This document shows positions 1,619 through 18,475 of a stretch of 64,000 nucleotides of DNA, piece by piece. This DNA comes from an uncultured Prolixibacteraceae bacterium (GTDB lineage Bacteria > Bacteroidota > Bacteroidia > Bacteroidales > Prolixibacteraceae): positions 1 through 64,000 of the forward strand of contig CAJXZG010000013.1 in NCBI GenBank assembly GCA_913063265.1, in the 5' to 3' direction. A program made the position numbers and the translations under genes. Below the pieces are notes generated by a model that saw only the letters and a list, made by a program, of their open reading frames with translations, was not told the DNA's origin and ran no database searches. Positions within the stretch are counted from its first letter, which is position 1; each line of letters starts with the position of its first letter.

Positions 1619-1842
1619 ATTTGTCAAATTTAAATTGATTAGTAGATATTTTAAGTTTATATTCTTCCGACTGTTATACATGATTAATTTAAACAGAAAT
1701 AAGTTGCGTAAACGAAAAAAATCTTTCCCATACTCATTTAATTATTTTTTAAAAGGGTTATAATTCATAGCAAAATCTGTCTCATGGTTGTTTCGACAGG
1801 ATTGATTAAGTTTGCTATCTAATTTTTGAAAAATCAAAACTT

Positions 1843-2418: not shown

Positions 2419-2595
2419 AGAAAGTCAGAAGGCTGAAGTAAGAAGAAAAATATAATTTTGAAATTATGGCCACCTGTCTTGACTTGAAGGACATTATTTT
2501 GGAATATTTATGAAATTGCCCCTATACCCTGAAAATAAAAATCGATCCTGAACAATATTTATCCTGATTTGTAATTATTGAATCTTTCCAAATAC

Positions 2596-2603
2596 TATTT
2601 TTG
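2596..2603 (+). promoter_or_regulatory. Putative -7 element before the M3 peptidase gene
   Basis: TATTTTTG matches the Bacteroidota -7 consensus TAnnTTTG and lies 24 bases before the ATG at 2628. A TTTG at 2568-2571 could be the -33 element, but the 24-base spacing is longer than usual. Confidence 0.35.
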
Positions 2604-2627
2604 GAAACAATTTAAAGATGCATTATA

Positions 2628-4712
2628 ATGAATAAATTTTTAGTAGTAATTTTTTTAATGAGTTTAGGAATGGTAAAAGCACAAGACAATCCGCTTTTAA
2701 AAGATTTTAACACACCGCACGAAACTGCTCCGTTTAATACAATTGAAAACGAGCATTTTTTACCTGCTTTTAAAGAGGCAATAAAACAAGGTGAAACAGA
2801 AATAGAAAAAATAAGGTCGAATAAAGAAACACCGACGTTTGAAAATACTGTAGTAGCAATGGATAAGGCTGGTCGTCTGTTGTCAAGAACGGCAGGAGTA
2901 TTTTTCAATTTACTGAGTTCTGAAACCAACGATGAACTGCAAAAAATAGCACAGGAAGTTTCACCAATGTTAACAAAATTTCAAAACGACATTTATCTGG
3001 ATCCCGTTCTTTTTGAAAGGGTTAAGAGAGTTTACAGTCAAATTGATAAACACCAGCTTACTCCCGAAGAAAAAACTTTAATTGAAAACAGTTATGTTGA
3101 ATTTGTTCGAAAAGGAGCCAATTTATCAGAAAAAGATAAAGAGAAATTCAGGGAAATAAGTACGGAAATATCAAAACTTACTCTTGAGTTCGGAGAAAAT
3201 GTACTGAAGGAAACCAATGCCTACGAACTACTTATTACAGAGAAAGACAAACTTTCAGGATTACCGGAAGGAACGCTGGAAGCAGCAGCAGGAAAGGCAA
3301 AAGCTAAAGGGAAAGAAGGTTGGTTGTTTGATATTACCATGCCAAGTTACCTTCCATTCATGAAATACGGCGATAACCGTGAACTTCGAAGAAAACTTTA
3401 CATCGCGTACGGTTCAAAATCTTTTAAAGGAAATGAATTTGACAACCAGGATAACGTAAAGCGAATTGTTGAACTTCGGATTGAAATGGCAAAATTACTG
3501 GGTTATGATAATTACGCAGAATATGTACTGGAAAGAAGAATGGCAATGAGCCCTGAAGGTGTGTATAAACTTCTGGATGATTTGTATGATGCTTCGCACA
3601 AAGTTGCATTGGAGGAAAAAGCTGAAGTTGAAGCCTTTGCTAAACAAAATGGCTTCGAAGGCGAATTAATGCCATGGGACTGGAGTTACTACAGTGAAAA
3701 GCTGAAAGTTGAAAAATTTGATTTGAACGACGAAATGCTTAAACCGTATTTTAAACTTGAAAATGTTGTTGATGGAGTTTTTGGACTTTCTACAGAGTTA
3801 TTTGGAATTACATTTAGAGAGAATAAAGATATTCAGGTTTATAACGAAGAGGTGACAGCCTATGAAGTTTTTGACGCAGATGGTAAGTTTCTTTCTGTTT
3901 TATATACCGATTTTCATCCTCGTGCAGGGAAACGCGGTGGTGCCTGGATGAATGATTTTAAGGGACAATGGAAAACAGACGGAGTAGATTCTCGTCCGCA
4001 TATTACCATTGTTATGAATTTTACCCGTCCGACTGAAACAAAACCGGCCCTGCTGACTTTTAGTGAAGTAGAAACATTTATGCATGAGTTTGGTCACGCT
4101 TTACACGGAATGTTGGCGAATTCCACATACTCCAGTTTATCAGGTACAAATGTATATCGTGATTTTGTTGAGCTTCCGTCACAAATTATGGAAAACTGGG
4201 CTGTAGAAAAAGAGTTTCTCGACCGATTTGCAAAGCATTACAAAACCGGAGAAAATATACCTGATGAACTGGTTAATAAAATTGTTGCATCACAAAATTA
4301 CCTCGCAGGATATCTTTCAATTCGACAGCTTAGCTTCGGGTATCTTGATATGGCATGGCACACACTTGAAAAACCTTACAAAGGCAATGTGAAAAAGTTT
4401 GAGGAAAAGTCCTGGGAAAGAACGCAAATTTTCCCATCGATTGACGAAGTTTGTATGAGTACTCAATTCGGACATTTATTTGCAGGAGGTTATGCTGCCG
4501 GTTATTATGGTTATAAATGGGCAGAAGTTTTGGACGCCGATGCTTTCAGCGTATTTAAAGAAAAGGGATTATTTAACAAAGAAGTTGCACAATCATTTCG
4601 CGAAAATATTCTGGAAAAAGGAGGCACAGAACATCCAATGGTTTTGTACAAACGATTTAGAGGACAGGAACCAACAGTGGATGCCTTACTGGAAAGAAGT
4701 GGACTAAAATAA
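2628..4712 (+). CDS. dcp: M3 family metallopeptidase, Dcp type, exported
   Basis: A zinc metallopeptidase of the M3 family (694 residues, close to the usual Dcp length), likely a peptidyl-dipeptidase that removes C-terminal dipeptides from oligopeptides. The zinc site is HEFGH at residues 486-490 with the third ligand Glu around 515 (DFVELPSQ). The C-terminal GHLFAGGYAAGYYGYKWAEVLDAD region is typical of Dcp/PrlC. The N-terminus MNKFLVVIFLMSLGMVKAQ is a Sec signal peptide, so it acts in the periplasm. It is monocistronic, with its own terminator just downstream. Dcp fits better than cytoplasmic oligopeptidase A because of the signal peptide. Confidence 0.92.
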   Translation: MNKFLVVIFLMSLGMVKAQDNPLLKDFNTPHETAPFNTIENEHFLPAFKEAIKQGETEIEKIRSNKETPTFENTVVAMDKAGRLLSRTAGVFFNLLSSETNDELQKIAQEVSPMLTKFQNDIYLDPVLFERVKRVYSQIDKHQLTPEEKTLIENSYVEFVRKGANLSEKDKEKFREISTEISKLTLEFGENVLKETNAYELLITEKDKLSGLPEGTLEAAAGKAKAKGKEGWLFDITMPSYLPFMKYGDNRELRRKLYIAYGSKSFKGNEFDNQDNVKRIVELRIEMAKLLGYDNYAEYVLERRMAMSPEGVYKLLDDLYDASHKVALEEKAEVEAFAKQNGFEGELMPWDWSYYSEKLKVEKFDLNDEMLKPYFKLENVVDGVFGLSTELFGITFRENKDIQVYNEEVTAYEVFDADGKFLSVLYTDFHPRAGKRGGAWMNDFKGQWKTDGVDSRPHITIVMNFTRPTETKPALLTFSEVETFMHEFGHALHGMLANSTYSSLSGTNVYRDFVELPSQIMENWAVEKEFLDRFAKHYKTGENIPDELVNKIVASQNYLAGYLSIRQLSFGYLDMAWHTLEKPYKGNVKKFEEKSWERTQIFPSIDEVCMSTQFGHLFAGGYAAGYYGYKWAEVLDADAFSVFKEKGLFNKEVAQSFRENILEKGGTEHPMVLYKRFRGQEPTVDALLERSGLK

Positions 4713-4733
4713 CATTTTGAAATAATCAATTTT

Positions 4734-4771
4734 AAAGGTCAATCATAAAAAATTTGATTGGCCTTTTATTT
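4734..4771 (+). terminator. Rho-independent terminator after the M3 peptidase
   Basis: AAAGGTCAATC at 4734-4744 pairs with GATTGGCCTTT at 4756-4766 (one G-U pair) around an A-rich loop and runs into a T-rich tract. It covers the earliest in-frame start of the next gene (4758), which argues that the real start is 4821. Confidence 0.8.
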
Positions 4772-4820
4772 TGAAAATGGTAATTTAGGGCTCACATTTT
4801 TATCAACCAAAAACCGAAAA

Positions 4821-5519
4821 ATGCATTTAACCCGGATTTCGTTATTAACGCATAAATTTCCGACAAAGGAACATTATCCTTTTTCCCTGCCCCTGCTTCA
4901 ACAGACAAAAGAAATAAATTTTAATACACCCGTAACCATTTTTGCCGGAGAAAATGGAAGTGGAAAATCCACGCTGCTCGAAGCAATTGTTGAAGCTTGT
5001 GGAATTTATATCTGGCGAAATTCGTTAATTTCCAGACACAGTTATAACAAATTTGAAAAACAACTGCAACGCTTTATAAAGATAGGCTGGACGAATGGTA
5101 TAGTTCCCGGGGCATTTTTTGGCTCCGACACTTTTAAAGATTTTACTTACTATCTGGAGCAATGGGCATCAACAGATCCCGGACAATTAAAATACTTTGG
5201 AGGTAAATCACTGGTTAGTCAATCGCATGGACAGTCGATGATGATGTATTTTAAATCACGATATAAACTAAAAGGGATATATTTTTTAGATGAACCGGAG
5301 ACTGCGTTATCTCCAAAAAGTCAGCTGGAACTTTTGAAAGTTATAAAAGAAAATTCTGAGGCCGGACATGCGCAGTTTATATTAATTACTCATTCACCAA
5401 TCCTGCTGGCTTGCGAAAATGCAACCATCTATAATTTTAATAAAATTCCATTGAACCGTATTGAATATAAGAATACGGAGCACTACAAGGTTTACAAAAA
5501 GTTTTTAATGGACAGGTAG
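4821..5519 (+). CDS. AAA/ABC-type ATPase, single domain
   Basis: A 232-residue cytoplasmic ATPase with a P-loop GENGSGKST (residues 43-51), an ABC-signature-like SQSHGQS and a Walker B FLDEPE followed by a switch His in ITHSPIL. The layout resembles stand-alone SMC/RecF-like ATPases found across bacteria. No partner permease or nuclease lies next to it. I chose ATG 4821 because the upstream alternative lies in the preceding terminator and adds residues without family character. The cellular role is unknown. Confidence 0.85.
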   Translation: MHLTRISLLTHKFPTKEHYPFSLPLLQQTKEINFNTPVTIFAGENGSGKSTLLEAIVEACGIYIWRNSLISRHSYNKFEKQLQRFIKIGWTNGIVPGAFFGSDTFKDFTYYLEQWASTDPGQLKYFGGKSLVSQSHGQSMMMYFKSRYKLKGIYFLDEPETALSPKSQLELLKVIKENSEAGHAQFILITHSPILLACENATIYNFNKIPLNRIEYKNTEHYKVYKKFLMDR

Positions 5520-5534
5520 AATCAAATATTGTAT

Positions 5535-5573
5535 AAAAAGAATAGCACCACAAACTGCGGTGCTATTCTTTTT
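5535..5573. terminator. Bidirectional terminator between the ATPase gene and gcvH
   Basis: A near-perfect hairpin, AAAAAGAATAGCACC against GGTGCTATTCTTTTT with a 9-base loop, has A-runs on one side and T-runs on the other. It can stop transcription of both convergent genes. Confidence 0.9.
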
Positions 5574-5593
5574 ATAATTGAATCTGAATTTTT

Positions 5594-5974
5594 TTATGCT
5601 TCGATCATTTTCTGATACTCATCTGCCGACATTAAGTCTGAAAGTTCCGATGAATCAGAAATATTAATTTTAATCATCCAACCTGCATGGTATGGATCTT
5701 TGTTTACCAATTCAGGTTCATCTGCCAAAGCCTCATTAACTTCAGCAACTTCACCACCAACAGGCATAAATAAATCAGAAACAGTTTTTACTGCTTCAAC
5801 AGTACCAAAAGTTTCTCCTTTGTCCAAAGTTTCACCTTCAGTTTCGATTTCCACAAAAACTACATCACCTAATTCGCCCTGAGCAAAATCGGTTACTCCA
5901 ATGGTTGCAACATCGCCTTCAACACGAACCCATTCGTGATCCTGAGTGTATTTTAAATCTGCCGGAATATTCAT
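5594..5974 (-). CDS. gcvH: Glycine cleavage system H protein
   Basis: Lipoyl carrier of the glycine cleavage complex, shuttling the aminomethyl group between the P, T and L proteins. It has 126 residues, the normal family length. The lipoylated lysine is K63 in FGTVEAVKTVSDL, and the N-terminal YTQDHEWVRVEGDVATIGVT stretch and the C-terminal PYHAGWMIKI are diagnostic. The other gcv genes are not in this window, so the complex is encoded at scattered loci. Confidence 0.97.
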   Translation of the reverse strand: MNIPADLKYTQDHEWVRVEGDVATIGVTDFAQGELGDVVFVEIETEGETLDKGETFGTVEAVKTVSDLFMPVGGEVAEVNEALADEPELVNKDPYHAGWMIKINISDSSELSDLMSADEYQKMIEA

Positions 5975-5997
5975 ATCAATGACTCTTAAATTTTGGT

Positions 5998-6005
5998 CAA
6001 AAATA
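5998..6005 (-). promoter_or_regulatory. Putative -7 element for gcvH
   Basis: On the minus strand the sequence reads TATTTTTG, matching TAnnTTTG, 24 bases before the gcvH ATG. A second copy of the same octamer lies at 6048-6055. Neither has a clear -33 element. Confidence 0.4.
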
Positions 6006-6127
6006 ATACTTTTTAATGAAAGATATGGTTATTAAAATAAAGCTTTTCAAAAATAGCTGATAATAATTCTTAATGCCACCCCAATAAAAATGAAAGTCAT
6101 TTTGTATTATTGCAAAAATTTATTCGC

Positions 6128-6550
6128 ATGTTCTCCGAAAAAGCAAATAATATCGAATCATTAATTCCGGTTGCAAAAAAGCTGGTTCAACATTTTCCCG
6201 AAAACAGGGTATTCGCATTTTACGGGAAAATGGGTGCCGGTAAAACTACTTTTATACAAGCAGTATGTAAAATACTTGGTTCAGAAGATAATGTAACCAG
6301 TCCTACTTTCGCCTTAATAAATGAGTACACTACTGATAAACTCAATTCCATCTTTCATTTCGATTTTTACAGAATTAAAGATATCGAGGAAGCATTCGAT
6401 TTAGGTTATGAGGATTATTTGTACAGTGGAAGTTACTGTCTTATAGAATGGCCTGAAATGATTGAAACGATCTTGCCGGAAAATATTGTAAAGGTAAGGA
6501 TTGAAGTTTCAGGGAATGGTTTGAGAAATATTTCAGCCAAAATTGTATAG
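6128..6550 (+). CDS. tsaE: tRNA threonylcarbamoyladenosine biosynthesis ATPase TsaE
   Basis: ATPase partner of TsaB/TsaD in making t6A37 on ANN-decoding tRNAs. It is 140 residues from ATG 6128; an earlier TTG at 6110 is less likely. The P-loop GKMGAGKTT is at residues 33-41, followed by the family signatures TSPTFALINEY and FHFDFYRI and the C-terminal CLIEWPE. It is followed by the alanine-dehydrogenase-like gene, a pairing I believe is common in Bacteroidota. Confidence 0.95.
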   Translation: MFSEKANNIESLIPVAKKLVQHFPENRVFAFYGKMGAGKTTFIQAVCKILGSEDNVTSPTFALINEYTTDKLNSIFHFDFYRIKDIEEAFDLGYEDYLYSGSYCLIEWPEMIETILPENIVKVRIEVSGNGLRNISAKIV

Positions 6551-6568
6551 TCCGGGATGAATTAACAA

Positions 6569-6576
6569 TACGTTTG
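6569..6576 (+). promoter_or_regulatory. Putative -7 element for the alanine-dehydrogenase-like gene
   Basis: TACGTTTG fits TAnnTTTG. A TTG lies 23 bases upstream inside the tsaE stop region. The leader to the ATG at 6672 would be roughly 90 bases. Confidence 0.3.
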
Positions 6577-6671
6577 TTTAGAACCTGATTCCTCATTTTG
6601 AAATTTCAGCTTTAGAATGTAACTTGTTCACCGATAAAAACGAACAATAACCGGCATAAATCAAATGCGAA

Positions 6672-7892
6672 ATGCAACCAAAGGAAGAATCAAAAGGAAA
6701 AGATCTGATTTCGAAAACAATGTTGATGCCCCAGGAAGAAATGCTTGAGGTAAAAAAAAGAGGCCAGAAAATTAAGATTGGTATTCCTTCTGATTATTCA
6801 AAGGTTGAATACAGGGTTCCTCTTACTCCACAGGCAGTTGATCTTCTTGTATCTTATGGTCATGAAATTCTTATTGAGACCAATGCAGGTCAGTCCGCCA
6901 GTTATGGAGATGAAGCTTATCGTGAAGTTGGCGCAATAATAGTTGAAGACAGTTCTCAGGTTTTTCAGTGTGATATTATACTCCGCATTTCCCCTTTTAG
7001 TAGCGATGAAATTGATAAACTCCGGGGAAACCAGGTAATTATCTCCAGTCTTCAACCACAAGCTCATTGCAGAGAAACAATTCAAAAAATGATGCAGAAA
7101 AAGGTTACTGCTATCGCTTTTGAATACCTTGAAAACGAAGATGGATTTATGCCTTTTGTACATCAGATGAGTCAGATTGCAGGAGCAACTTCTATTACTA
7201 TTGCAAGCGAATATTTAAGTAAATCACGGGAAGGTAAAGGAGTTCTTTTTGGAGAAGTAACAGGTGTTACGCCAGCTGAACTGGTAATAATAGGAACAGG
7301 AACAGCTGCTGAATATGCAGCCAAAGCAGCTCTGGGACTGGGTATTTTTGTAAAAGTTTTTGATACTTCTATTTCTGATTTAAGTAAACTTGAAGAAAAG
7401 CTTGGACGTCGGATATTTACTTCAGTTTTCTATCCAAAGGTTTTGAAAAAGGCACTTGTTTCTGCCGATGTTGTGATTGGTGCTATGGCTTTTAACAGTG
7501 TTTTGAAGTTTAAGGTTTCAGAGGAACTGGTGAAAAAGATGAAAGAAGGTTCGGTTATAATTGATTTAAATGCCAGCCAGGGTGGATGCTTTGAAACTTC
7601 GAAATGTACAACATTTAATGATCCAACCTATGTTAAACATGGAGTGGTACACTATTGTGTTCCAAATTCTCCGGCACTTGTTGCAAGAACTGCCTCAATT
7701 TCGATGAGTAATATTCTTATTCCTGTATTGCTTTCCATAAGCGATGATGGCGGAGTTAATAATTACATCAAATCTTCAAGAGGATTTCGTAAAGGAGTTT
7801 ACATATATCATGGAATTCTTACCAATCATGAACTTGGATATATGTTTAATATTCCTGCAAAAGAAATTGACTTGTTATTAGCAGTATTCTAA
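6672..7892 (+). CDS. Alanine dehydrogenase/PntA-like NAD(P)-binding protein
   Basis: A 406-residue protein of the alanine dehydrogenase / transhydrogenase alpha-subunit superfamily. The N-terminal domain begins around residue 33 (KIKIGIPSDY), with the substrate Arg in VEYRVPLTP (R48). The Rossmann motif IGTGTAAEYAAKAA follows near residue 205. Compared ungapped with classical Ald as I recall it, the catalytic Lys75 position is S107 and the His96 position is Q128. The DIILRISPFSSDEI and SSLQPQ segments look more like PntA. Residues 1-32 are an extra tail. Databases may call it alanine dehydrogenase, but the activity is uncertain. Confidence 0.8.
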   Translation: MQPKEESKGKDLISKTMLMPQEEMLEVKKRGQKIKIGIPSDYSKVEYRVPLTPQAVDLLVSYGHEILIETNAGQSASYGDEAYREVGAIIVEDSSQVFQCDIILRISPFSSDEIDKLRGNQVIISSLQPQAHCRETIQKMMQKKVTAIAFEYLENEDGFMPFVHQMSQIAGATSITIASEYLSKSREGKGVLFGEVTGVTPAELVIIGTGTAAEYAAKAALGLGIFVKVFDTSISDLSKLEEKLGRRIFTSVFYPKVLKKALVSADVVIGAMAFNSVLKFKVSEELVKKMKEGSVIIDLNASQGGCFETSKCTTFNDPTYVKHGVVHYCVPNSPALVARTASISMSNILIPVLLSISDDGGVNNYIKSSRGFRKGVYIYHGILTNHELGYMFNIPAKEIDLLLAVF

Positions 7893-8001
7893 TCCAGTGT
7901 CATAAAAAGATTAACCTGGCATTGGCTGTGTTTACTTTTCTGATTTTGTATAATCCTGAAAATAATATCAATTTAAGCGACATTTCAGACCTGAAACGTT
8001 A

Positions 8002-8436
8002 CTAGTCTTCCTTAGCTTCCCAAATTATCTTTTTCCCAAACCCTAAACGGTTATCAGTCATTTTAATATAGTCCACATGAACTATCCATAAAGACGTCTT
8101 CATCAGAACTGCAAAAGGAAATCTTTTCAGATAAGCTTTTTTTGCTTTTTCCGCCAGTTCGCTTTTAGGTATTTCCATTAATCCCCGAAATTGAATTCCC
8201 CTGATTTTTCCAACCACATTGGTTTCCAGAACTACACTGCCGGCCACTCTTGGGTTTGTATTCACATCCTGAACATGTTTTGTACTATCGTCTGATGTAA
8301 AAACAAAACAATTTTCCTCTTCCAGATACACATAGAAACAATTGGCACACCAAGGATTATTTTCCACACAACTTGCCAGGGTTAATACATGATGTTTATG
8401 AATAAAATCAATAATTCGTTTTTCAGGATTCTTCAT
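8002..8436 (-). CDS. YhbP-family (UPF0306) protein, FMN-binding split barrel
   Basis: A 144-residue member of the pyridoxamine-5'-phosphate-oxidase-like fold that closely follows E. coli YhbP: WCANCFYVYLEEE near the start and TDNRLGFGKKIIWE at the C-terminus. I chose ATG 8436 (MKNPEKRIIDFIHKHH). Extending to 8517 would add a hydrophobic stretch and overlap the divergent osmC-like gene. The function of the family is unknown, with a flavin- or heme-related role inferred from the fold. It is divergent from the OsmC-like gene. Confidence 0.85.
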   Translation of the reverse strand: MKNPEKRIIDFIHKHHVLTLASCVENNPWCANCFYVYLEEENCFVFTSDDSTKHVQDVNTNPRVAGSVVLETNVVGKIRGIQFRGLMEIPKSELAEKAKKAYLKRFPFAVLMKTSLWIVHVDYIKMTDNRLGFGKKIIWEAKED

Positions 8437-8498
8437 TTCGTTTAATTGAGGGGCTAAAAATAGTTGTATATTCGTAGATATCAAAAAAGTAAAACCCA

Positions 8499-8903
8499 AT
8501 GACAACAATAAAAACAATATACCTTGGAGATTTACGTACCGAGAACGAACACCTGCAATCGGGCAACAAAATAATTACTGATGCCCCGACCGATAACCAG
8601 GGCAAAGGAGAAGCTTTTTCCCCCACCGATTTGTTGGCAACAGCACTTGGAAACTGTATAATGACAATAATGGGAATTAAAGCAAGAGATAACGGAATTG
8701 ACATACAAGGTACCGAAGTAGATGTCACGAAGATAATGGCTTCAGATCCCAGGCGTGTAGCTGAAGTTATCGTTGAATTCACTTTCCCTGAAAAGGATTA
8801 TTCCGAAAAAGAAAAACAGCTGATTGAAAGTGTAGCCGGAACAAGTCCGGTGCCTTTAAGTTTGCACCCCGATTTAAAACAAACAATCAAATTTAACTGG
8901 TAG
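8499..8903 (+). CDS. OsmC/Ohr-family protein
   Basis: A 134-residue OsmC-like protein. The family normally reduces organic hydroperoxides with two cysteines. The first is present (C53 in LGNCIMTIMGI, after the SPTDLLATAL helix). The second, normally in a CPV motif, is a serine here (S116 in GTSPVPLSLHPD). A single-Cys thiol chemistry or another ligand-binding role is therefore likely. It is divergent from the YhbP-like gene with 62 bases between the starts. Confidence 0.88.
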   Translation: MTTIKTIYLGDLRTENEHLQSGNKIITDAPTDNQGKGEAFSPTDLLATALGNCIMTIMGIKARDNGIDIQGTEVDVTKIMASDPRRVAEVIVEFTFPEKDYSEKEKQLIESVAGTSPVPLSLHPDLKQTIKFNW

Positions 8904-8967
8904 CAACGATGTGCGAATCATGCACAATAAACTAATAATCAACACTTTTATATTGAAATTCTGATTG

Positions 8968-10905
8968 CTATTTTTGTTTTACTATTTTCTTTTCAAACCT
9001 TTGTTTGGTGGTTTCCCCTTTTACGAAATAAACTCCATTCGGAATTGCGTCCGGTAAAAAAACTGTATCTCCGGCTTTATATTTTTTTACACTTTTTCCT
9101 TGCACATTAAAAACTTCCAGGTAAACAAGCTCCTCACCCACTGGTAATTGTAATGAAAAACTCTCAGAAAAAGGATTGGGATAAATTCTGATTTCGTTGG
9201 ATTCGTTTAACTTATCAACTGAAAGAATCTTATCGGTTTTTGAAATCAGCCATAAATCCGGATCAATTTTTATTTCTGAAACATTGAAACCAACTTCAAC
9301 CACAAACTCCTGATTATTGCTTGTATGATTTAATCTAAAATCTGCCGAATCGGTTTTAGTAAAGTTATACGCTCTAACAGGTACAGGCATTTCATAAAAA
9401 TCCACTGAAGGATGAGTAGTACTTTGTGACAGCACAATACTTAACATATCCTCATTTTGCATTTTAAATTCTGCTGAATAAATCGGATATCCCTCACCAA
9501 AATACCAGTCATTAAAATACTCTATTAAACTTGTATCGCCAACCAACTCCATATGCTTTTGAAAATCAGAGGTTAAAGCAAAACCATTGGCCACTTTCGG
9601 GTCGTTGTAATAATTTCTCATACCTGTAAAGAATGCTTCATCACCAATAATCCACCTTATCATGTGCAACAAATATGCACCTTTGGAGTATGAAAGTCTG
9701 GAGCTAAAAATATCGCTAACATTTGTAGTATCTTTTACATAAACCGAACCATCCGGTTCGCGGGTAATACGATTCACATGACCACTTTTAAAAAAAGGCC
9801 ACCAATATCCATCCTGAAGATTTTCATATACTATTCCGGATAAATAAGTTGCAAATCCTTCATTTAGCCATATATCGTGCCATGAACCACAGGTAATATA
9901 ATTGCCAAACCACTGATGGGCCAACTCGTGGGCAATTAGTTCGTAACCAAAACCTCCCATAAAACTCATGGTTTGATGCTCCATACCACCACCCCAACCA
10001 AATTGAGCATGACCGTATTTTTCATTTGCAAACGGATATTCACCAAATATTTCGTTAAACAGTTCCATAAATTCGATGGTAACTTTTGCATCCTCTTTTG
10101 CTTTATCCAGGTTTTCAGGATAAACATAGTTAAGGATTTCAATTTGTCTTCCATCTTTCAAATCCACCCAATCAGAGAATTCAGCATAATTTGTAACTGC
10201 TATTGCAACCAGATAAGTTACTATAGGGTGACGATGTTTCCAATGCATTCTACGCAATCTGTTTTCTACAGAATTGTATACAACGATTCCGTTACTTGCT
10301 GTTTTATATTGCTCCGGGGTTGTTACAATGATATCCACAGAATCAATTTTATCGACAAGCGACTGTTTACAAGGCCACCACTCCATTGCGCCATAAGGTT
10401 CAGAAAGTGTCCAGATAACTGGAACTCCCTCATGTTCAGCCTGAACAAATGAACCAAATCCCATATCCTCAGCTTCAGGCTCTCCCTGATAATATACTTG
10501 CACAGAATCGATTTGTTCTGTTTCCAAAGGTGTTGACAGGGAGATTGTTAATTTATTGTTTTCATGTATAAAATTTACCATCTGATTATTCTGAACTACA
10601 GAATCGACTGTCAAATTATTGCTTAAATCGAATTCTATCTCACTTAATAGATCAACCTGACTAACAAAATAAGATGTAACGCTTCCTTTTATATACTTAA
10701 TGTTGGGATTGATTTCCCAATCCATTCTTTGATAAATCAAGTTGGTTTTTCTATAACTCCGGCTCTCTTTAAAAAGTGACTTTTTCACAAATCGGGACTT
10801 GTCCTGAAATGCAATTTTATCTGTAAACTCAGGATCCGGTTTTTGAGCAAAAGCAAAAACTGGAACCAGAATTAATACCAGAATATTTATAAGACTTTTT
10901 ATCAT
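8968..10905 (-). CDS. M1 family aminopeptidase with T9SS sorting domain
   Basis: A secreted zinc aminopeptidase of 645 residues. It has a signal peptide (MIKSLINILVLILVPVFAFAQ), an N-terminal beta domain, an exopeptidase motif GGGMEH (305-310), HELAH (326-330) and the third zinc ligand E349 in LNEGFATY. The last 80 residues form a T9SS type A sorting domain (starts IRIYPNPFSESF, ends in a Lys-rich tail), so the enzyme is exported through the outer membrane. It lacks the large ERAP1-like C-terminal domain of long M1 enzymes. It probably trims extracellular peptides. Confidence 0.93.
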   Translation of the reverse strand: MIKSLINILVLILVPVFAFAQKPDPEFTDKIAFQDKSRFVKKSLFKESRSYRKTNLIYQRMDWEINPNIKYIKGSVTSYFVSQVDLLSEIEFDLSNNLTVDSVVQNNQMVNFIHENNKLTISLSTPLETEQIDSVQVYYQGEPEAEDMGFGSFVQAEHEGVPVIWTLSEPYGAMEWWPCKQSLVDKIDSVDIIVTTPEQYKTASNGIVVYNSVENRLRRMHWKHRHPIVTYLVAIAVTNYAEFSDWVDLKDGRQIEILNYVYPENLDKAKEDAKVTIEFMELFNEIFGEYPFANEKYGHAQFGWGGGMEHQTMSFMGGFGYELIAHELAHQWFGNYITCGSWHDIWLNEGFATYLSGIVYENLQDGYWWPFFKSGHVNRITREPDGSVYVKDTTNVSDIFSSRLSYSKGAYLLHMIRWIIGDEAFFTGMRNYYNDPKVANGFALTSDFQKHMELVGDTSLIEYFNDWYFGEGYPIYSAEFKMQNEDMLSIVLSQSTTHPSVDFYEMPVPVRAYNFTKTDSADFRLNHTSNNQEFVVEVGFNVSEIKIDPDLWLISKTDKILSVDKLNESNEIRIYPNPFSESFSLQLPVGEELVYLEVFNVQGKSVKKYKAGDTVFLPDAIPNGVYFVKGETTKQRFEKKIVKQK

Positions 10906-11024
10906 ATGCTAATGGTAAAATCAAACATGGGTGAATTTAAAATTTACAAACAGGTGTTTCAAACTATTGTTTTGATTACGATATTTCAAATAAAACAAAT
11001 TCCGCAATTATTAAGATTAGTACA

Positions 11025-12206
11025 TCACGTTTTTTCCGAAAAATTTATAATACGTCCATCCATATCATTCCCGGTTTCACTGTTTAATGGAAATTTAATT
11101 GGCTTATTATCTCTTGTCGACCGATAAATTGCAGTAAATAATTCAACGGTTTTTCTACCATCTTCGCCTGTTACCAATGGTTCGGTATTGTTTTGAATAG
11201 CTTGCAAAAAATTTTCTATTTGACGCTCCATATAATAAACCATCGGATCGATATTATGAAAATATTCTGAATCTTCTTTATTCCATTTTTCCAGCAATTT
11301 TTCTTCACCGGATACCGACCAGATATCATTTATTGGCGGCTCTAAAATTCCTGACATTCCGGCGATAAACATGGCCCCTCCATCGGTTTGTACACCTACT
11401 GAAGCACCGTTTTCTCCATGAACATGTACCTTACCATAAATCCCGGGTTTTTGCGAATTACTCACAATGACATTCCCGATTGCCCCGTTTTTGAATTTTA
11501 TAATTGCTACGGCCGTATCCTCGACTTCAATATAGGGATGATTTAGATTCTCCCATTTCCCGTAAACCTCATCAATTTCACCCATTAACCAAAGAAGAAT
11601 ATCCAGTTGGTGAGGAGCCTGATTAACCAACACCCCGCCACCTTCCATAAGCCAGGTTCCGCGCCATTCATCAGAATCGTAATAACTTTTATCGCGCCAA
11701 CCGAGCATATTTATTGTTCCAAAAACCGGCTTGCCTATTTTTCCTGATTCAATTGCTTTTTTTACTCTTTGTACTGGTTCATACCAACGCCTTTGACTGA
11801 TAACCCCAAGTTTTACTCCTGCCTTTTTGCAGGCTTCAATCATAGCGTCTGAATCTTCAAGAGTTGATGCCAATGGTTTTTCCACCAAAATATTTACACC
11901 CGATTTTGCTGCTTCTAAAACGGGCTCCAAATGAAACGGATGCGGTGTGCAAACAATTACCAAATCAATATTTTCCTTTTCTGCTAATTCTGAAATTTTA
12001 ATGTAAAAAGGAACATTATATTTTGCTGCAAAATTTTTAGCGGTTTTTTCGGTCCTGCTCCAAACACCGGCAAGTTTTGCATTATCCAGATTGTTAATTG
12101 CCCTTGCGTGCAAATGAGCTACTTTTCCACAGCCCAGGATGGCGATGTTGTAGGAAAAGTCAGAAGTTCGATGTCCGGAGCCGGAAGTATTGTTTTTGTT
12201 GTTCAT
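11025..12206 (-). CDS. Gfo/Idh/MocA family oxidoreductase
   Basis: A NAD(P)-dependent sugar or cyclitol dehydrogenase/oxidoreductase of 393 residues. The Rossmann motif ILGCGKVAHLHARAI begins near residue 23, followed by the catalytic-lysine motif VEKPLAS and the C-terminal alpha/beta domain with GGGVLVNQAPHQLDILLWLMG. The first 19 residues (rich in Ser, Gly and Thr) precede the normal start of the fold and are encoded in a repeat-like stretch. It lies just downstream of the zinc dehydrogenase on the same strand, so the two probably act in one sugar-oxidation route. The substrate is unknown. Confidence 0.9.
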   Translation of the reverse strand: MNNKNNTSGSGHRTSDFSYNIAILGCGKVAHLHARAINNLDNAKLAGVWSRTEKTAKNFAAKYNVPFYIKISELAEKENIDLVIVCTPHPFHLEPVLEAAKSGVNILVEKPLASTLEDSDAMIEACKKAGVKLGVISQRRWYEPVQRVKKAIESGKIGKPVFGTINMLGWRDKSYYDSDEWRGTWLMEGGGVLVNQAPHQLDILLWLMGEIDEVYGKWENLNHPYIEVEDTAVAIIKFKNGAIGNVIVSNSQKPGIYGKVHVHGENGASVGVQTDGGAMFIAGMSGILEPPINDIWSVSGEEKLLEKWNKEDSEYFHNIDPMVYYMERQIENFLQAIQNNTEPLVTGEDGRKTVELFTAIYRSTRDNKPIKFPLNSETGNDMDGRIINFSEKT

Positions 12207-12340
12207 AATTTTGGTCTTATAATACTCCCCGGGTTTAAACCCGGTGTTATTTATATTAAAGTCCTTCGGACTTTTGAATTAAACATCTGTGTAGTAATAG
12301 ATTTTTACTCCCCTCCCACGGAGGGGCTGGGGGAGGCCGG
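12157..12340. repeat. Cluster of extragenic repeat-like palindromes at a gene junction
   Basis: This short junction holds a perfect palindrome CCGGGTTTAAACCCGG at 12229-12244 and a hairpin AAAGTCC-TTC-GGACTTT at 12258-12274. A third hairpin, CCCCTCC-CAC-GGAGGGG at 12310-12326, is followed by a G-rich tail. The style matches REP-like elements of Bacteroidota. The third hairpin encodes the last residues of the dehydrogenase upstream, and a related-looking stretch at 12157-12189 encodes the first residues of the downstream oxidoreductase. Confidence 0.65.
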
Positions 12341-13366
12341 AACTAAAATTACTTTATTTAATCCCGGTTCTTTATTGTACAAACGTTTAAACCATTCTGC
12401 ACCTTCTGAAAGCGGGGCAATAGCAGTAATCATTTTATCGACCTCTATTTTTCCGGACGCTAACAAATCGAGCACCATCTCATATTCTCCATTAATAGCG
12501 CAACTGCCCAAAAGTGAAATTTCAGTGGTTACAATTTTTTGCAAGGGAACTTTTATTTCAGGACTGATATTTCCAATCAATACAGCGGTCCCGCCTTTTC
12601 GCAAATTATCGATACATAAATTTACAGTTTCCGAAATTCCAACCACTTCAAAACCAAAATCAACTCCCCGGTTTTTAGTCAACTCCTTTATCTTTTGAAC
12701 AACATTATTATCTGAACTTTTAAAAGTATGTGTAGCACCAAATTCTCCGGCCAGTTTTAATTTTGTATCATCCAAATCGACAGCGATAATTGGATAGACA
12801 CCTGCAATTTCCAATATCTTTATTACAAACATACCAACCATTCCGGCACCCACAACAACCGCACTTTTGCCAGGTTGAATTTTTGAAATGTTTACCGCAT
12901 GTGCTGCTACTGCAACCGGTTCAACCATAGCTGCCTGTTCATAAGAAACATTGTCAGGAAGCTTGTACAAAATGTGGGCAGGTACAGAAACATAATCTGC
13001 AAAAGCCCCATTCCTCTTGTATTCCTTAGGAGAAACACCAAAAACTTTTCTGTTTTCGCTTAAATTATACCGTCCGTTTAACGTGTACCAGTCGTTTAAT
13101 GGATAAATTGTAGAATCAAAAGTAACCCTGTCGCCTAATTTCCATTCTATTACTTCGGAACCAAGTTCTACAATTTCTCCGGAAGCCTCGTGCCCCATTA
13201 TAATTGGAGGATTTCTTCTTCCGGTACTTCCATCCATACCATGGACATCGCTGCCACAAATACCACATGCTTTTACCTTTATTAAAACTTCTTTAGATTC
13301 AATTACAGGATTAGGAAAATCACGGTAATTAAGTTCCATATATTTGTCTAAAACCAGAGCTTTCAT
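12305..13366 (-). CDS. Zinc-dependent alcohol/sorbitol dehydrogenase-like protein
   Basis: A 353-residue medium-chain dehydrogenase. The catalytic zinc site is intact: C37 in CGICGSD, H59-E60 in GHEASG, and Glu in MVEPVAVAAHA near 148. The cofactor motif is VVGAGMVGM. The structural zinc loop is not intact. The four cysteines expected with CX2CX2CX7C spacing fall on P89, D92, T95 and S103, although the flanking residues (TFDSTIY before, NRKVFGVSPKEYKRNGAF after) are well conserved. The final ten residues, rich in Pro, Ser and Gly, are encoded by an extragenic repeat. It probably oxidises a polyol or sugar with the downstream Gfo/Idh/MocA protein. Confidence 0.9.
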   Translation of the reverse strand: MKALVLDKYMELNYRDFPNPVIESKEVLIKVKACGICGSDVHGMDGSTGRRNPPIIMGHEASGEIVELGSEVIEWKLGDRVTFDSTIYPLNDWYTLNGRYNLSENRKVFGVSPKEYKRNGAFADYVSVPAHILYKLPDNVSYEQAAMVEPVAVAAHAVNISKIQPGKSAVVVGAGMVGMFVIKILEIAGVYPIIAVDLDDTKLKLAGEFGATHTFKSSDNNVVQKIKELTKNRGVDFGFEVVGISETVNLCIDNLRKGGTAVLIGNISPEIKVPLQKIVTTEISLLGSCAINGEYEMVLDLLASGKIEVDKMITAIAPLSEGAEWFKRLYNKEPGLNKVILVPASPSPSVGGE

Positions 13367-13759
13367 TTATCAATTTTGTTTTAAGGTTTTTATTGATTTT
13401 AAAGTGACTTGAAATAACTTATTCATCTAATCAAAAATATTCATTTTCATTAAATGTTTGGTTCTTCATAATTACAAAATTTCAAAAAGCCGGATGTTTA
13501 CGCGTAAAAAAGAACTTATTTATATCTTTTGCAAAAGCAGCCTTTAAAAGATTTAGTTTTATACAAATCGATGCATAAAATCATGAAACACTTTGACCTT
13601 CTGTCAAAAAACCTCAATCGATTATATCTATTGAACGAACCTTCTTCATAATTTGTCCGTATCGTATTAATATGTATTTCAATTCAATTCCCAGACTAAA
13701 AGTTTAAAACTCTAAAATTGAACGAATTAATTTCAATTTAAAGCTAAAAGGATAAAAAC
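13367..13759. other. Intergenic region upstream of the RiPP-like cassette
   Basis: Very AT-rich 393-base gap between divergent genes, expected to hold the promoters for both. I see no exact TAnnTTTG element, no RNA gene and no convincing small gene. A 26-codon open frame at 13571-13651 looks like chance. Confidence 0.5.
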
Positions 13760-15265
13760 ATGTTTACGGAAACGAATAAAGAGAATGTAACATTTAAATC
13801 AGAAGTTTTATCCAATTACAAAAGCAGTTTATCCAATAAACTGTATAAGGTTGAAGATAGTTTTAAAAGTTCCAATCCTTTCCTTTTATTCAATCACGGA
13901 ATTCATTACTGGGTCGCCCTTGACAAACTTGGTACTGAAATTATTCGGGCATTAAATAAAAACAAGAACTTATCAGAATTGAAGAACGAGTTGCTTTTAA
14001 AAGGCGTAATTGATTCTGAAAAATTAGAAAATGAAGTTATCCCGATTTTAAAGTTTTTAATCAAACTAAACTTTATTCAAACTGATAATCTGGACAAAGA
14101 AAGAAATTGGGGAAAGAAGGTATTTCCTTTAAACACTCCTATTCAATATCCATTTGAAGATATTGTTATTAGTCTGGCGGATCAATGCAATCTTGCCTGC
14201 AAATATTGTTTTAATGCAGGAAGTCGTCATTCCCGAATAAATAAAAATTCCCGAATAAAAAAAATAGACAGAAAGTCGATTAAGAAACTTTTAATCAGTT
14301 ATCAGAAGGCAGGTGGTACAGGAGTGATTTTTACCGGTGGAGAACCAACCTTGAATCCTGAATTACTTTCCTTTTTAGAAGATGCCAAAGCGTGTGGACT
14401 TAAAACCAGTCTGATTACAAATGGTACACGTTTAAAGGATCTTCAAATTGATAAGCTGGTTACAGTACTTGATTCCCTGCATGTAAGTATAGACTCTTTA
14501 GATCCTGAAATCAATTCAAAATTATGGGGTATAAAAGTTGAAAAAATACGGGAAGATTTTATTTCCGAATTAGTGAAAATCGGTTCAAAAGCAAGCCAAA
14601 TTGGAGAAAAAATTCGTTTGGTACTGAAGCCTACAATTACAAGGCTTAACCAACATTTACTTTCCGACTTATTTATAGAATGCGGTAAACGACTTTCTCA
14701 ATTCGATTTCGATTTTGATATTACAAAATATGAACCTATCGAAAATAAAGAAGTAAATGCTGAACTTGAGATTTCCCCTAAAGAATATAAAAATTCTTTG
14801 TACTCGGCATTTAAAGCATATTTACAAAACTTAAATCCAGATATAACAGAAATCGATGCTCATTATAAGGCAGAATTATTTGCCCATACCAATGCTGGAA
14901 AAGTGACACCTTCTAACCGACCTGTAAATCTCTCATGCGTTCCATCATTATTTGTAACCAATAACGGCGATGTATATCCATGTCAGGCATTTGAAGTAGC
15001 ACACTTTAAGTTGGGAAATGTATTTGAGCATTCTATTAACGACTTTTTTACCCATAAAGGTTTTTCAATATTACGAACCAAAATGACCCGTGATGATATT
15101 GAAATATGTAAGGATTGTGAATTTCGTTTCCTATGCACCGATCATTGTCATGGCGAATCGTTTAAAAAAATTGGAAAAACAACTGCATTCCGAGGAGATA
15201 AAACATTCGATTGTAAGAAAAGAGTTGTTAAAAGATTATGGTTAGAAACACAGGTTAAAAAATAA
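13760..15265 (+). CDS. Radical SAM/SPASM peptide maturase with N-terminal PqqD-like domain
   Basis: A 501-residue candidate RiPP maturase. Residues about 30-110 look like a PqqD-type winged-helix RiPP recognition element (YWVALDKLGTEIIRALN, then two helices). The radical SAM barrel follows, with CX3CX2C at C143, C147 and C150 and the GGE motif TGGEPTLNP (192-200). The C-terminal SPASM domain carries seven cysteines (393, 408, 450, 453, 459, 463, 485), enough for two auxiliary [4Fe-4S] clusters, with NGDVYPCQAF typical of the family. It is first in a tight operon: the next gene starts 2 bases after its stop. By family knowledge such enzymes form thioether, C-C or related crosslinks in a precursor peptide; which bond forms here cannot be told. 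Confidence 0.9.
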   Translation: MFTETNKENVTFKSEVLSNYKSSLSNKLYKVEDSFKSSNPFLLFNHGIHYWVALDKLGTEIIRALNKNKNLSELKNELLLKGVIDSEKLENEVIPILKFLIKLNFIQTDNLDKERNWGKKVFPLNTPIQYPFEDIVISLADQCNLACKYCFNAGSRHSRINKNSRIKKIDRKSIKKLLISYQKAGGTGVIFTGGEPTLNPELLSFLEDAKACGLKTSLITNGTRLKDLQIDKLVTVLDSLHVSIDSLDPEINSKLWGIKVEKIREDFISELVKIGSKASQIGEKIRLVLKPTITRLNQHLLSDLFIECGKRLSQFDFDFDITKYEPIENKEVNAELEISPKEYKNSLYSAFKAYLQNLNPDITEIDAHYKAELFAHTNAGKVTPSNRPVNLSCVPSLFVTNNGDVYPCQAFEVAHFKLGNVFEHSINDFFTHKGFSILRTKMTRDDIEICKDCEFRFLCTDHCHGESFKKIGKTTAFRGDKTFDCKKRVVKRLWLETQVKK

Positions 15266-15267
15266 AT

Positions 15268-15654
15268 ATGGCAGCTAATCATAACAATAAAATATCGAAG
15301 GACTGCGGAGCTCGTGCACTTTCAAGGGCTTGTAAAATGTTAGGAAAAGAAATATCATATAATCAGATAATTGAGTTAGCAAAACCGCAAAAAAAAGGAG
15401 TATCCTTACTGACCTTAAAACATGCGGCCGAGAACTTAGGATTACAAGTTCAACTCATCCGCACCAACTATTTAAATCTGTGCTTATTGCCAAAACCCAT
15501 AATAGTCCATCTAAGATATAATCACTATGATGTTATTACAAAATGTAATTCACGAAATGTTGAAATCATGGATCGAAAAATATGGAAGAAAACTCCATTA
15601 TGGTTATTCAATTTGGAATGGAGTGGAGCTGCAATGGTTTTATCACTAAAATAA
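15268..15654 (+). CDS. Stand-alone C39-like papain-fold peptidase
   Basis: A 128-residue protein resembling the C39 bacteriocin-leader peptidase domain without its ABC transporter. The putative triad is C13 (SKDCGARALSRACKMLG), H86 (RYNHYDVI) and D102 (VEIMD). The KKGVSLLTLKHAAENLGL helix is typical of C39. The position of the usual oxyanion-hole Gln, six residues before the Cys, is Asn (N7). It has no signal peptide and no membrane segment, so it would act in the cytoplasm. It is placed between maturase and precursor, which suggests cleavage of the precursor leader at its Gly-Gly site. Confidence 0.8.
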   Translation: MAANHNNKISKDCGARALSRACKMLGKEISYNQIIELAKPQKKGVSLLTLKHAAENLGLQVQLIRTNYLNLCLLPKPIIVHLRYNHYDVITKCNSRNVEIMDRKIWKKTPLWLFNLEWSGAAMVLSLK

Positions 15655-15660
15655 AGGAGG
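15654..15660 (+). promoter_or_regulatory. Strong Shine-Dalgarno for the precursor peptide
   Basis: AAGGAGG lies 5 bases before the ATG at 15666 and overlaps the stop codon of the peptidase gene. Such strong sites are uncommon in Bacteroidota. It fixes the start of the small gene and suggests the precursor is translated much more than the two enzymes. Confidence 0.8.
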
Positions 15661-15665
15661 TTAAA

Positions 15666-15908
15666 ATGAAAACGAAAGAAAAAAAAGTTCATGTTCAAAC
15701 ACCAGGATTTGAGCCTATTACCGACAAAGAAGCGGACCAAATTACAGGAGCACTTGATGATCCAATTAATGGTGGGCTTTGCGCTTTACCAGGATTTGCT
15801 TGCAACAAAAAAGGAGGCTTAAAAATTGGTGTATGTGTCATTGCCGGAATTGCCTGGGGTATTTATACACCTATTGGAGGTAAAAAGAAGGATGAAACTG
15901 ATAACTGA
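15666..15908 (+). CDS. Candidate RiPP precursor peptide with double-glycine leader
   Basis: An 80-residue peptide. The N-terminal part is charged and leader-like: PITDKEADQITGA resembles double-glycine leaders, and INGG at 34-37 offers a second cleavage site. Cutting after G37 leaves a 43-residue core with three cysteines (C39, C46, C57), a Gly-rich hydrophobic stretch (GVCVIAGIAWGIYTPIGG) and a charged tail. It is the last gene of the operon with the maturase and C39-like protease, under its own strong SD. The core looks membrane-active and bacteriocin-like, but function is inference. No exporter or immunity gene is adjacent. Confidence 0.75.
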   Translation: MKTKEKKVHVQTPGFEPITDKEADQITGALDDPINGGLCALPGFACNKKGGLKIGVCVIAGIAWGIYTPIGGKKKDETDN

Positions 15909-15952
15909 TATTCAATTGAGTTCCTTTTTATCCGGCAAATAACATGGTTTGG

Positions 15953-15975
15953 TTTTCACTTAATAGTAGTGAAAA
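15953..15975 (+). terminator. Hairpin after the precursor gene, possible weak terminator
   Basis: TTTTCACT pairs with AGTGAAAA around a 7-base loop, 45 bases after the precursor stop. No long T-run follows directly, so termination is uncertain. Confidence 0.3.
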
Positions 15976-16087
15976 TGTTAATTCCCTGCATTTTTTTCGG
16001 TTTAGCCACAGGTAAGAGGTAGTATTTGACTAAGGGAAAGTCATTCAGTCCACCTTTTAACCAGGACAATTATAAAAAATATAAACT

Positions 16088-18475
16088 CTATTCGAAATTA
16101 TTCAGTGAAAAAGTATATTTCTCCCCCCGGGTAGTTAGCTGAGAAATAAGCTTGTTATTGTATCTGACATTTAACTGATTTCCCAATAGTGAAATAATTT
16201 CAGTTGATACTAATTTTCCTTCTTCCCAGCTAATCGAAATTTCAAATCCGCCCCGGGTTTTTAATCCTGTTACTTTTCCAGATGAAAGCGCAGAAGGAAG
16301 TGCAGGTAAAACATCGATATAAAAATTCCCTTCTTCATCGCGCAAATGGGACTGTAGTATCATTTCAGTGATCCCGGAAGTTGCTCCAAAGTTACCGTCT
16401 ATTTGAAACGGTGGATGGGCATCAAACAAATTAAAATACAGCCCTCCGCGATCTTTATAATCCGTTTCTTCACTAATCGAAGGAACCATAAGATTCTTAA
16501 GTAGAAGAAATGCGTGATCTCCATCAAGCAATCTGGCCCAGAAATTAATTTTCCACGCCCGGGACCAGCCTGTACCGCCATCACCCCGATGAGAGAGCGT
16601 TACTTTACAGGCTTCTGCCAGTTCAGGGGTAGTTAGAGGATGAATCTCACTTCCCGGATGTAATCCCCACAAATGCGAAACATGTCGGTGTTGGTTTTCA
16701 GGATCATCTTTATCAACAATCCATTCCTGCAACTGACCATGTCTTCCAATTTGATTAGGTGCTATTTTTGACCGTATTTCTGTTAATTCCTTAACCAACT
16801 CAGCGTCGACATCCAATATTTCAGCCGCCTCGATAGTATTGGAAAATAATTCTCTGATAATCTGGTGATCCATAGTTGGGGCCATAACCAATCCTCCCAG
16901 TTCAGGACTGTTACTTGGACCACTAACCAACCAATTCCTATTTTTGGGATACGGAACCAGGTAGTCTGCAAAAAATATTGAAGCTCCTTTTAATACCGGG
17001 TAAGCTTTGTTTTTTAAATACTCTTTGTTACCTGTAAACTGATAGTGCCACCATAAATGTTGACTTAACCATGCACCCCCTGTAGGCCAGATTCCGTGAT
17101 TTGCATTGTTAATTGGTGCAGCTCCCCGCCAGATATCTGTATTGTGATGAGTTACCCATCCCTGCAGATTATAATGTTCTTTTGCTGTACTTTGACCGCT
17201 TACTGACAAATCTTCAACCATTCGAATCAAAGGATCTGTTAACTCTGAAAGATTTGTAATTTCTGCAAGCCAGTAATTCATCTCAGTATTTATGTTTATG
17301 GTGTATTTACTATCCCAGGGAGGAGCAAGCTTATCATTCCAGATTCCTTGCAAATTGGCGGGCTGTGTTCCAATTCGGGATGAGGAAATCAATAAATATC
17401 TTCCATATTGAAATAACAAAGACACAAGGCTTGGATCTTCATCCTGTTTAAATGAAATTAATCGTTCATTGGTTGGCCGGTTTGATATTTCTGAACTTCC
17501 AAGCTTCAAATTAATACGTTTAAACAATTTCATATAATCAGCAATATGCCTGGCTTTTATTGTTTCATACTTTTTGCTATCCAGTTTTGCAAGATAGTTT
17601 TCACAGTTTTCTGCCGGATTGCCATTGGTATTGTTATAATTAATAAAACTTGTGGAAGCAACTACATGAAAATTTATTCTGTTTGCTTTTTGTACTTCGA
17701 TAGAATTGACATTACTTATCAGTTCCCCTCCTTCATTAACGACCTTTATCCTTGCTTCAAAAGTTAATGTGCTTTTTGGATAAGGCTTTCCATCTCTGCC
17801 TAATTCCTTGGGATAATTGTTTGCTTTACCTTTTAGAATAATTTCATCGCCAACCACTGTTACGGTATAATTTTCATGTGGCGATTCAAAGCTTATAATC
17901 GTATTGAGTTTTCGTTTTTTAGAAGATTGGAGGTTGATAAAAATTGCCTGGTCAGGATTCGATGCAAAAACTTCGCGTTTATATTTTACCCCATCAACTT
18001 CATATTGTACACTTGAAATTGCATTCTCCAAATCGAGGTTTCGTTTATAATTTTGAACGTTCCCGTGCCCCGGAAAATCTAATATTATATTTCCAAAGGG
18101 AAGATAACATTGCTGCCCAAATGGCTGTGACATAAACTGCTCATTACCCAGCTTATGTGCTTCGTCTTGTTTTCCCTGCCATAATAATTGACGAATTTTG
18201 TTAAGATAACGATATGCGCCAGGATTTGCATAATCATGCGGCTGACCTGACCACAAGGTTTCCTCATTAAATTGTATAAATTCTTTTTCTGTTCCTCCGT
18301 AAATCATCGCTCCCATTCGACCGTTACCAACCGGTAATGCTTCAGTCCAGTTTTCCGCGGGTTGATTATACCATAAATTTAATGATGGATCGGAAAGTTT
18401 TATGGAAGTTTCTGTATTACATGCTACCAGCACAATTAACACAGATAAAAAAATGGTTTGAATAGTTTTATTCAT
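16088..18475 (-). CDS. GH95 family alpha-L-fucosidase-like lipoprotein
   Basis: A 795-residue glycoside hydrolase of family GH95, which includes inverting alpha-1,2-L-fucosidases and alpha-L-galactosidases. It has a lipoprotein signal ending in LVAC, an N-terminal beta domain (GNGRMGAMIYGG and NEETLWSG signatures) and an (alpha/alpha)6 barrel. Residues matching the AfcA catalytic set are N394 and N396 in NINTEMNYW, E525 in SNSPELGG and D693 in QIDGNFGATSG. It is likely anchored in the periplasm or on the surface. The upstream nitrilase ends 5 bases before its start, so the two are co-transcribed. Confidence 0.92.
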   Translation of the reverse strand: MNKTIQTIFLSVLIVLVACNTETSIKLSDPSLNLWYNQPAENWTEALPVGNGRMGAMIYGGTEKEFIQFNEETLWSGQPHDYANPGAYRYLNKIRQLLWQGKQDEAHKLGNEQFMSQPFGQQCYLPFGNIILDFPGHGNVQNYKRNLDLENAISSVQYEVDGVKYKREVFASNPDQAIFINLQSSKKRKLNTIISFESPHENYTVTVVGDEIILKGKANNYPKELGRDGKPYPKSTLTFEARIKVVNEGGELISNVNSIEVQKANRINFHVVASTSFINYNNTNGNPAENCENYLAKLDSKKYETIKARHIADYMKLFKRINLKLGSSEISNRPTNERLISFKQDEDPSLVSLLFQYGRYLLISSSRIGTQPANLQGIWNDKLAPPWDSKYTININTEMNYWLAEITNLSELTDPLIRMVEDLSVSGQSTAKEHYNLQGWVTHHNTDIWRGAAPINNANHGIWPTGGAWLSQHLWWHYQFTGNKEYLKNKAYPVLKGASIFFADYLVPYPKNRNWLVSGPSNSPELGGLVMAPTMDHQIIRELFSNTIEAAEILDVDAELVKELTEIRSKIAPNQIGRHGQLQEWIVDKDDPENQHRHVSHLWGLHPGSEIHPLTTPELAEACKVTLSHRGDGGTGWSRAWKINFWARLLDGDHAFLLLKNLMVPSISEETDYKDRGGLYFNLFDAHPPFQIDGNFGATSGITEMILQSHLRDEEGNFYIDVLPALPSALSSGKVTGLKTRGGFEISISWEEGKLVSTEIISLLGNQLNVRYNNKLISQLTTRGEKYTFSLNNFE

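Follow-up and report, generated by a model that had tools for sequence, protein, structure and literature searches.

A probable minimal radical-SAM RiPP unit with its own free-standing C39 peptidase, apparently inserted between two carbohydrate-metabolism genes of a Bacteroidota genome

Three intact genes on the same strand fill positions 13760-15908 of the 64,000-nucleotide stretch analysed here (the window), which comes from one Bacteroidota genome. We read them, with a probability of roughly 0.7, as a minimal radical-SAM RiPP unit that has its own soluble leader peptidase and entered this lineage as an insert. The genes present, their sequence motifs and the leader motif are directly established, as is the change in the surrounding gene order; the C39 fold is shown by structure prediction. 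Radical-SAM RiPP cassettes are already known; this one has an unusual processing enzyme and, as a set, no sampled counterpart. The features of the cassette are the following:

13760-15265, + strand: 501-aa peptide maturase of the radical SAM/SPASM type, PqqD-like at the N-terminus (Pfam, NCBIfam, cysteine positions)
13898-14077, + strand: residues 47-106 of the maturase, PqqD-like (Pfam, E 0.095, under the cut-off)
15268-15654, + strand: free-standing C39 peptidase, 128 aa, with C13/H86/D102 and Asn7 replacing Gln (Pfam, alignment, predicted structure)
15656-15663, + strand: strong Shine-Dalgarno-like site AAAGGAGG ahead of the precursor gene (sequence, compared with window genes)
15666-15908, + strand: precursor peptide, 80 aa, with Cys39/46/57 (reading frame, leader pattern test)
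15717-15752, + strand: motif ITDKEADQITGA for recognition and cleavage of the leader (residues 18-29), with a predicted cut after Ala29 (pattern test)

The genes are separated by 2 bp (maturase/peptidase) and 11 bp (peptidase/precursor). A RiPP cassette of three compact genes with these parts in this order had been proposed in an earlier, sequence-only reading; all three frames are indeed intact, and a RiPP cassette is retained as the best reading of them. Exporter, immunity and regulator genes were looked for beside the cassette and none was recognised, in agreement with that reading. Promoter and terminator scans of the cassette gave nothing exceeding shuffled sequences.

The maturase matches the Pfam families Radical_SAM (E 4.2e-20) and SPASM (2.1e-10), both over the cut-off. 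Ten of its 12 cysteines occupy the expected cluster positions, as claimed at the outset: the CxxxCxxC motif is formed by C143, C147 and C150, and the seven SPASM cysteines by C393-x9-G-x4-C408, C450-x2-C453-x5-C459-x3-C463 and C485. The PqqD domain claimed for the same protein is weak in the cassette maturase itself but clear in its two best full-length homologues, where the aligned region is over the cut-off (2.5e-10 and 6.4e-10). Among the 25 NCBIfam matches listed for the maturase none is over its cut-off, and the best is a viperin model, which covers the radical SAM core only. The StsB sactipeptide maturase model (NF045574) matches at 8.4e-20 and 71 bits, against a cut-off of 625 bits; it is also the best NCBIfam match of the two full-length homologues (3e-60 and 2.5e-62, far under the cut-off). 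The solved chains matched by sequence include 5wgg (5.3e-11, titled as sactipeptide thioether formation) and 5v1q (6.1e-8, SuiB). The structure model of the maturase is poor (pLDDT 54.8), so its fold matches, led by SuiB and CteB, count as weak support. With the StsB match far under the cut-off and the top match, to a viperin model, confined to the core domain, thioether formation is no more than a reasonable guess for this enzyme. The cassette resembles the PqqD-fused maturases of the StsB/CteB/SuiB type in the putative PqqD-like N-terminal region, the CxxxCxxC motif, the seven-cysteine SPASM domain and the small cysteine-containing peptide adjoining, and differs from them in adding a free C39 peptidase and in its identity of 23-24% to the nearest full-length homologues found.

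The second gene encodes a clear Peptidase_C39 (PF03412, 5.9e-19, 68.7 bits against a cut-off of 22). The 128-aa frame matches C39 alone and has no fused ABC transporter, which bears out the claim that the peptidase is unfused and distinguishes it from a PCAT. Its structure model (pLDDT 81.8) is similar to chains of ComA and of the LahT-leader complex (TMq 0.82-0.87). The C13/H86/D102 triad named earlier lines up with the triad of relatives: when 41 other C39 sequences are aligned with the cassette peptidase, the His is found in 41, the Cys in 40 and the Asp in 38. Six positions ahead of the Cys, 40 of these 41 relatives have Gln and the remaining one, which is also without the Cys, has Leu; the cassette peptidase has Asn7 there, a replacement that the earlier note had not mentioned. 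This replacement may be tolerated, because in the sections of the LahT work available to us (PMC6363468) the conserved Gln is only proposed to stabilise the oxyanion, and a distance of 4.3 A separates the two in the structure of the LahT complex. Weak or altered peptidase activity is the other possibility.

The peptidase thus compared shares with the C39 domains of ComA, LahT and PCAT1 the fold, the Cys-His-Asp triad and a matching double-glycine-type leader adjoining; unlike them, it is without an ABC transporter, has Asn for Gln and has a C-terminal half shorter than that of C39-ABC domains. FapD is another C39 protein, and its NCBIfam model, at 224 positions, leaves no room for an ABC transporter. 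Its name, C39 endopeptidase of fibril amyloid maturation, points to a different pathway, and the cassette peptidase matches the model at E 0.0046, far below its cut-off. PoyH and ThoK are stand-alone cysteine proteases that remove the leader in RiPP clusters, according to the accessible portions of a 2023 review (PMC10885120), but they belong to family C1A and the cassette peptidase to C39.

The predicted precursor has a leader that fits this peptidase. In ITDKEADQITGA, I18 is at position -12, E22 at -8, A23 at -7 and I26 at -4, and the motif ends in G28-A29. The same -12/-8/-7/-4 positions are described for C39 substrates in the LahT work, which also reports cleavage after GA as well as after GG and GS (PMC6363468, available sections). 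The pattern searched for (hydrophobic at -12, Glu at -8, hydrophobic at -7 and -4, then GG, GA or GS) turns up in 52 of 20,000 shuffled versions of the peptide, in one of the 146 window ORFs of 50-120 aa, which is the precursor itself, and in none of 230 ORFs of that size from other loci; these frequencies are a guide and not a strict test, as the pattern was composed when the peptide and the literature consensus were known. Two possible Gly-Gly-type cleavage sites had been named, with a core of about 43 or 51 residues. The full pattern is found at Gly28-Ala29 and is missing at the second site, Gly36-Gly37, so the 51-residue core is favoured over the 43-residue one. This predicted core is rich in Cys and Gly, contains Cys39, Cys46 and Cys57, and is hydrophobic in its last third (LKIGVCVIAGIAWGIYTPIGG, then KKK), an end that would suit a membrane-active peptide. 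Upstream, the precursor frame continues without a stop as far as an ATG at 15582, which would give 108 aa; the ATG at 15666 is preferred as the start because AAAGGAGG lies just upstream of it. AGGAG or GGAGG precedes none of 35 other window genes, a selected set with mechanically assigned starts.

Relatives of the maturase are distant. A scan over 84,980 species, which requires exact 8-residue stretches, brought up 45 weak relatives. Many of these were picked out by the common SPASM stretch EICKDCEF, a selection that biases how close they seem in the SPASM part. The best other match among 149 related genomes has an E value of 9e-15. Among 395 genomes of the phylum, matches at 8e-32 and 3e-17 (genomes G784 and G566, respectively) are the nearest full-length relatives, and inspection of both loci revealed no C39 relative next to the maturase homologue. 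A profile search of 384 genomes of the order gave 11 matches in 10 other genomes (E <= 1e-25), and no C39 relative was found in the neighbourhoods inspected for nine of these 11. The pairing of this maturase with a C39 peptidase is thus not seen elsewhere in the neighbourhoods inspected. Plasmids and phages contain distant maturase matches only, and none was confirmed in viral contigs.

Locus L212 (genome G344, about 1151-5605) has a separate 95-aa frame that looks PqqD-like, a gene for a 365-aa radical SAM protein, two further genes (312 and 316 aa) and a number of small peptides with a common ELVDLNNI-type stretch, and resembles another RiPP locus. Separately, five loci in five genomes (L124, L215, L216, L217 and L218) have a recurring gene pair, in which a gene of 526-550 aa precedes one for a radical SAM protein (about 440-480 aa), the latter with a common N-terminal stretch, RPYIFVRTEDNILIKRPN or similar.

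For the precursor, no Pfam or NCBIfam match was found at E <= 1, and it thus belongs to no described precursor family; one weak PHROG match (E 0.026) extends across 19 residues. No convincing relative was found in 139 other genomes of the family (five matches with E values from 0.0016 to 0.1, of which two fall in frames some 1,010 aa long) or in 392 other genomes of the order (a single match at E 0.0036, its frame being 2,054 aa long). Plasmids contain no relative and none was confirmed in viral contigs; all these searches cover samples or collections, and the order search was drawn from a larger group. On its own terms, the sequence-only reading would be refuted if homologues of the small gene were absent or apart from the maturase elsewhere, or if the 80-residue frame lacked conservation as a protein. 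This applies in part: with no convincing homologue, neither co-location nor protein-level conservation can be demonstrated.

Free C39 genes are found at other loci. The C39 matches listed include ten frames shorter than 260 aa besides that of the cassette, and all ten were retrieved. Two are clear cases, C39 frames of 146 and 145 aa without an ABC domain (L114 and L118, in the sample from the same order), and both loci are grasp-with-spasm loci with NCBIfam models over the cut-off. Like the cassette, they combine a free C39 near a SPASM-type maturase with small peptides whose leaders end in GG or GS. Unlike the cassette, they have additional genes, among them one for an ATP-grasp ligase, the Gln is retained in their C39, and L114 has a second, longer C39 frame; no ATP-grasp match was found by Pfam among the three cassette genes, which are thus not a grasp-with-spasm system. 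The earlier reading had set the unfused peptidase against typical bacteriocin loci; these two loci, each with one, show that a free C39 is not confined to this gene set. A free C39 near SPASM-type maturases recurs and is unusual, not unique. The other short frames were set aside. Two (L119 and L120) are probably split exporters, judged from an ABC-like frame directly downstream, one (L116) is missing the aligned Asp-Pro, and the remaining five are fragments or lie at contig ends. L116 itself (genome G136, 771-12834) contains two radical SAM frames, the 140-aa C39 frame concerned, two cysteine-rich peptides with GG leaders and a full-length C39-containing frame.

According to the portions of the 2023 review available to us, C39 in RiPP clusters belongs to the exporter and the single-domain leader proteases are of family C1A; the review suggests that exporter-derived domains may act alone (PMC10885120). 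In a survey of Bacteroidales, as far as its accessible text goes, a C39-ABC exporter is present in seven of the nine clusters analysed and absent from BGC3 and BGC5 (PMC10352776). A phrase search for standalone C39 found no paper, in a literature mostly without subscription papers and with other wordings possible.

The neighbourhood of the cassette differs from that of related genomes. The stretch concerned and the genes flanking it are:

12305-13366, strand opposite to the cassette: alcohol dehydrogenase (Pfam)
13367-16087, no strand assigned: stretch between the alcohol dehydrogenase and GH95 genes, 2,721 bp (same-genus locus comparison)
16088-18475, strand opposite to the cassette: family 95 glycoside hydrolase, GH95 (Pfam)

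Nine same-genus loci were compared, those with the closest dehydrogenases among 19 other same-genus genomes with a dehydrogenase match. In eight of them the two flanking genes are 4, 4, 25, 25, 54, 81, 173 and 500 bp apart (aligned ends); in the ninth (G016), GH95 is missing from the place next to the dehydrogenase. In the less similar G018 and G021, both genes are on one contig, far apart. The 36 other same-genus genomes searched all lack the insert as a whole; three of them have matches to its DNA, which are short (24-72 bp). Given the short gaps in eight of nine loci and the absence of the insert from the 36 genomes, the cassette looks like a lineage-specific gain by insertion. No mobile-element gene or clear terminal repeats were seen at the insert. 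The maturase has a GC3 of 0.251 (mean 0.310 and minimum 0.243 for the 20 window genes longer than 1 kb), and its codon usage and GC are inside the range of the genes in the window, so composition does not prove a foreign origin. The 500-bp gap (L186, genome G020) holds other sequence. The dehydrogenase-GH95 spot may accept insertions repeatedly.

The insert could instead be what is left of a larger RiPP cluster that lost its exporter and immunity genes, with a drifting peptidase and a cassette that barely functions or no longer does. Such pruning would fit the lack of recognised exporter or immunity genes nearby, Asn7, the shortened C-terminal half of the peptidase and a precursor without relatives. 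Yet the three frames are intact, the ten cysteines and the Cys-His-Asp triad are complete, and a strong ribosome-binding site precedes the precursor; moreover, the flanks contain no recognisable gene fragments, the only frames of at least 30 aa there being 33, 40 and 37 aa long. We therefore regard a remnant as unlikely and keep the reading of a minimal unit with its own peptidase.

On that reading, the PqqD-like region of the maturase would hold the precursor leader while the enzyme crosslinks the core at one or more points, by thioether or carbon-carbon bonds. Cleavage after Gly28-Ala29 by the free C39 peptidase would follow in the cytoplasm and give a 51-residue product. Any export would depend on a transporter from outside the cassette, for which two C39-ABC/HlyD pairs of the genome are the most plausible candidates. 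Cytoplasmic processing with export in trans had also been suggested in the earlier reading and stays putative. The order of these steps, the activity of the peptidase and a bacteriocin-like or signalling role are all putative, and the cassette would have been acquired as an insert between two carbohydrate-metabolism genes. The two C39-ABC transporters with HlyD-type partners are on other contigs of the genome (L127 on contig 169 and L128 on contig 39 of G000), and no GG-type peptide gene is evident beside them among the frames listed. Both would be expected to cut the leader of the cassette too. One of them might do the processing, with the small C39 as a non-proteolytic leader-binding helper; C39-like domains without protease activity are described in the available sections of the LahT work (PMC6363468), and Asn7 would agree with such a role. 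This is less probable still than a remnant, as the absence of the catalytic Cys is what defines C39-like domains and the cassette peptidase has it, together with the His and the Asp. That the 80-aa frame is no gene, or not the true substrate of a maturase and peptidase acting on something else, would fit the lack of homologues in the sets searched and of any Pfam or NCBIfam match, but is highly improbable given the rarity of the leader motif among shuffles and similar-sized window ORFs, the strong ribosome-binding site and the position 11 bp past the peptidase gene.

C39 peptidases have mostly been studied as exporter domains, in which cutting and secretion are coupled, preventing a build-up of active product in the cell. 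The reading of a unit with its own soluble peptidase has a bolder form that we put forward tentatively: a very small, possibly self-sufficient unit of 2.7 kb, in which a free C39 with an altered oxyanion region frees a crosslinked hydrophobic peptide in the cytoplasm and leader removal is uncoupled from export. If true, this would be a processing logic for double-glycine leaders that differs from the transporter-coupled one. A soluble C39, a matching leader and one maturase would offer a direct test of the coupling between cutting and export in three genes, and may yield a compact tool for leader removal and a new crosslinked peptide.
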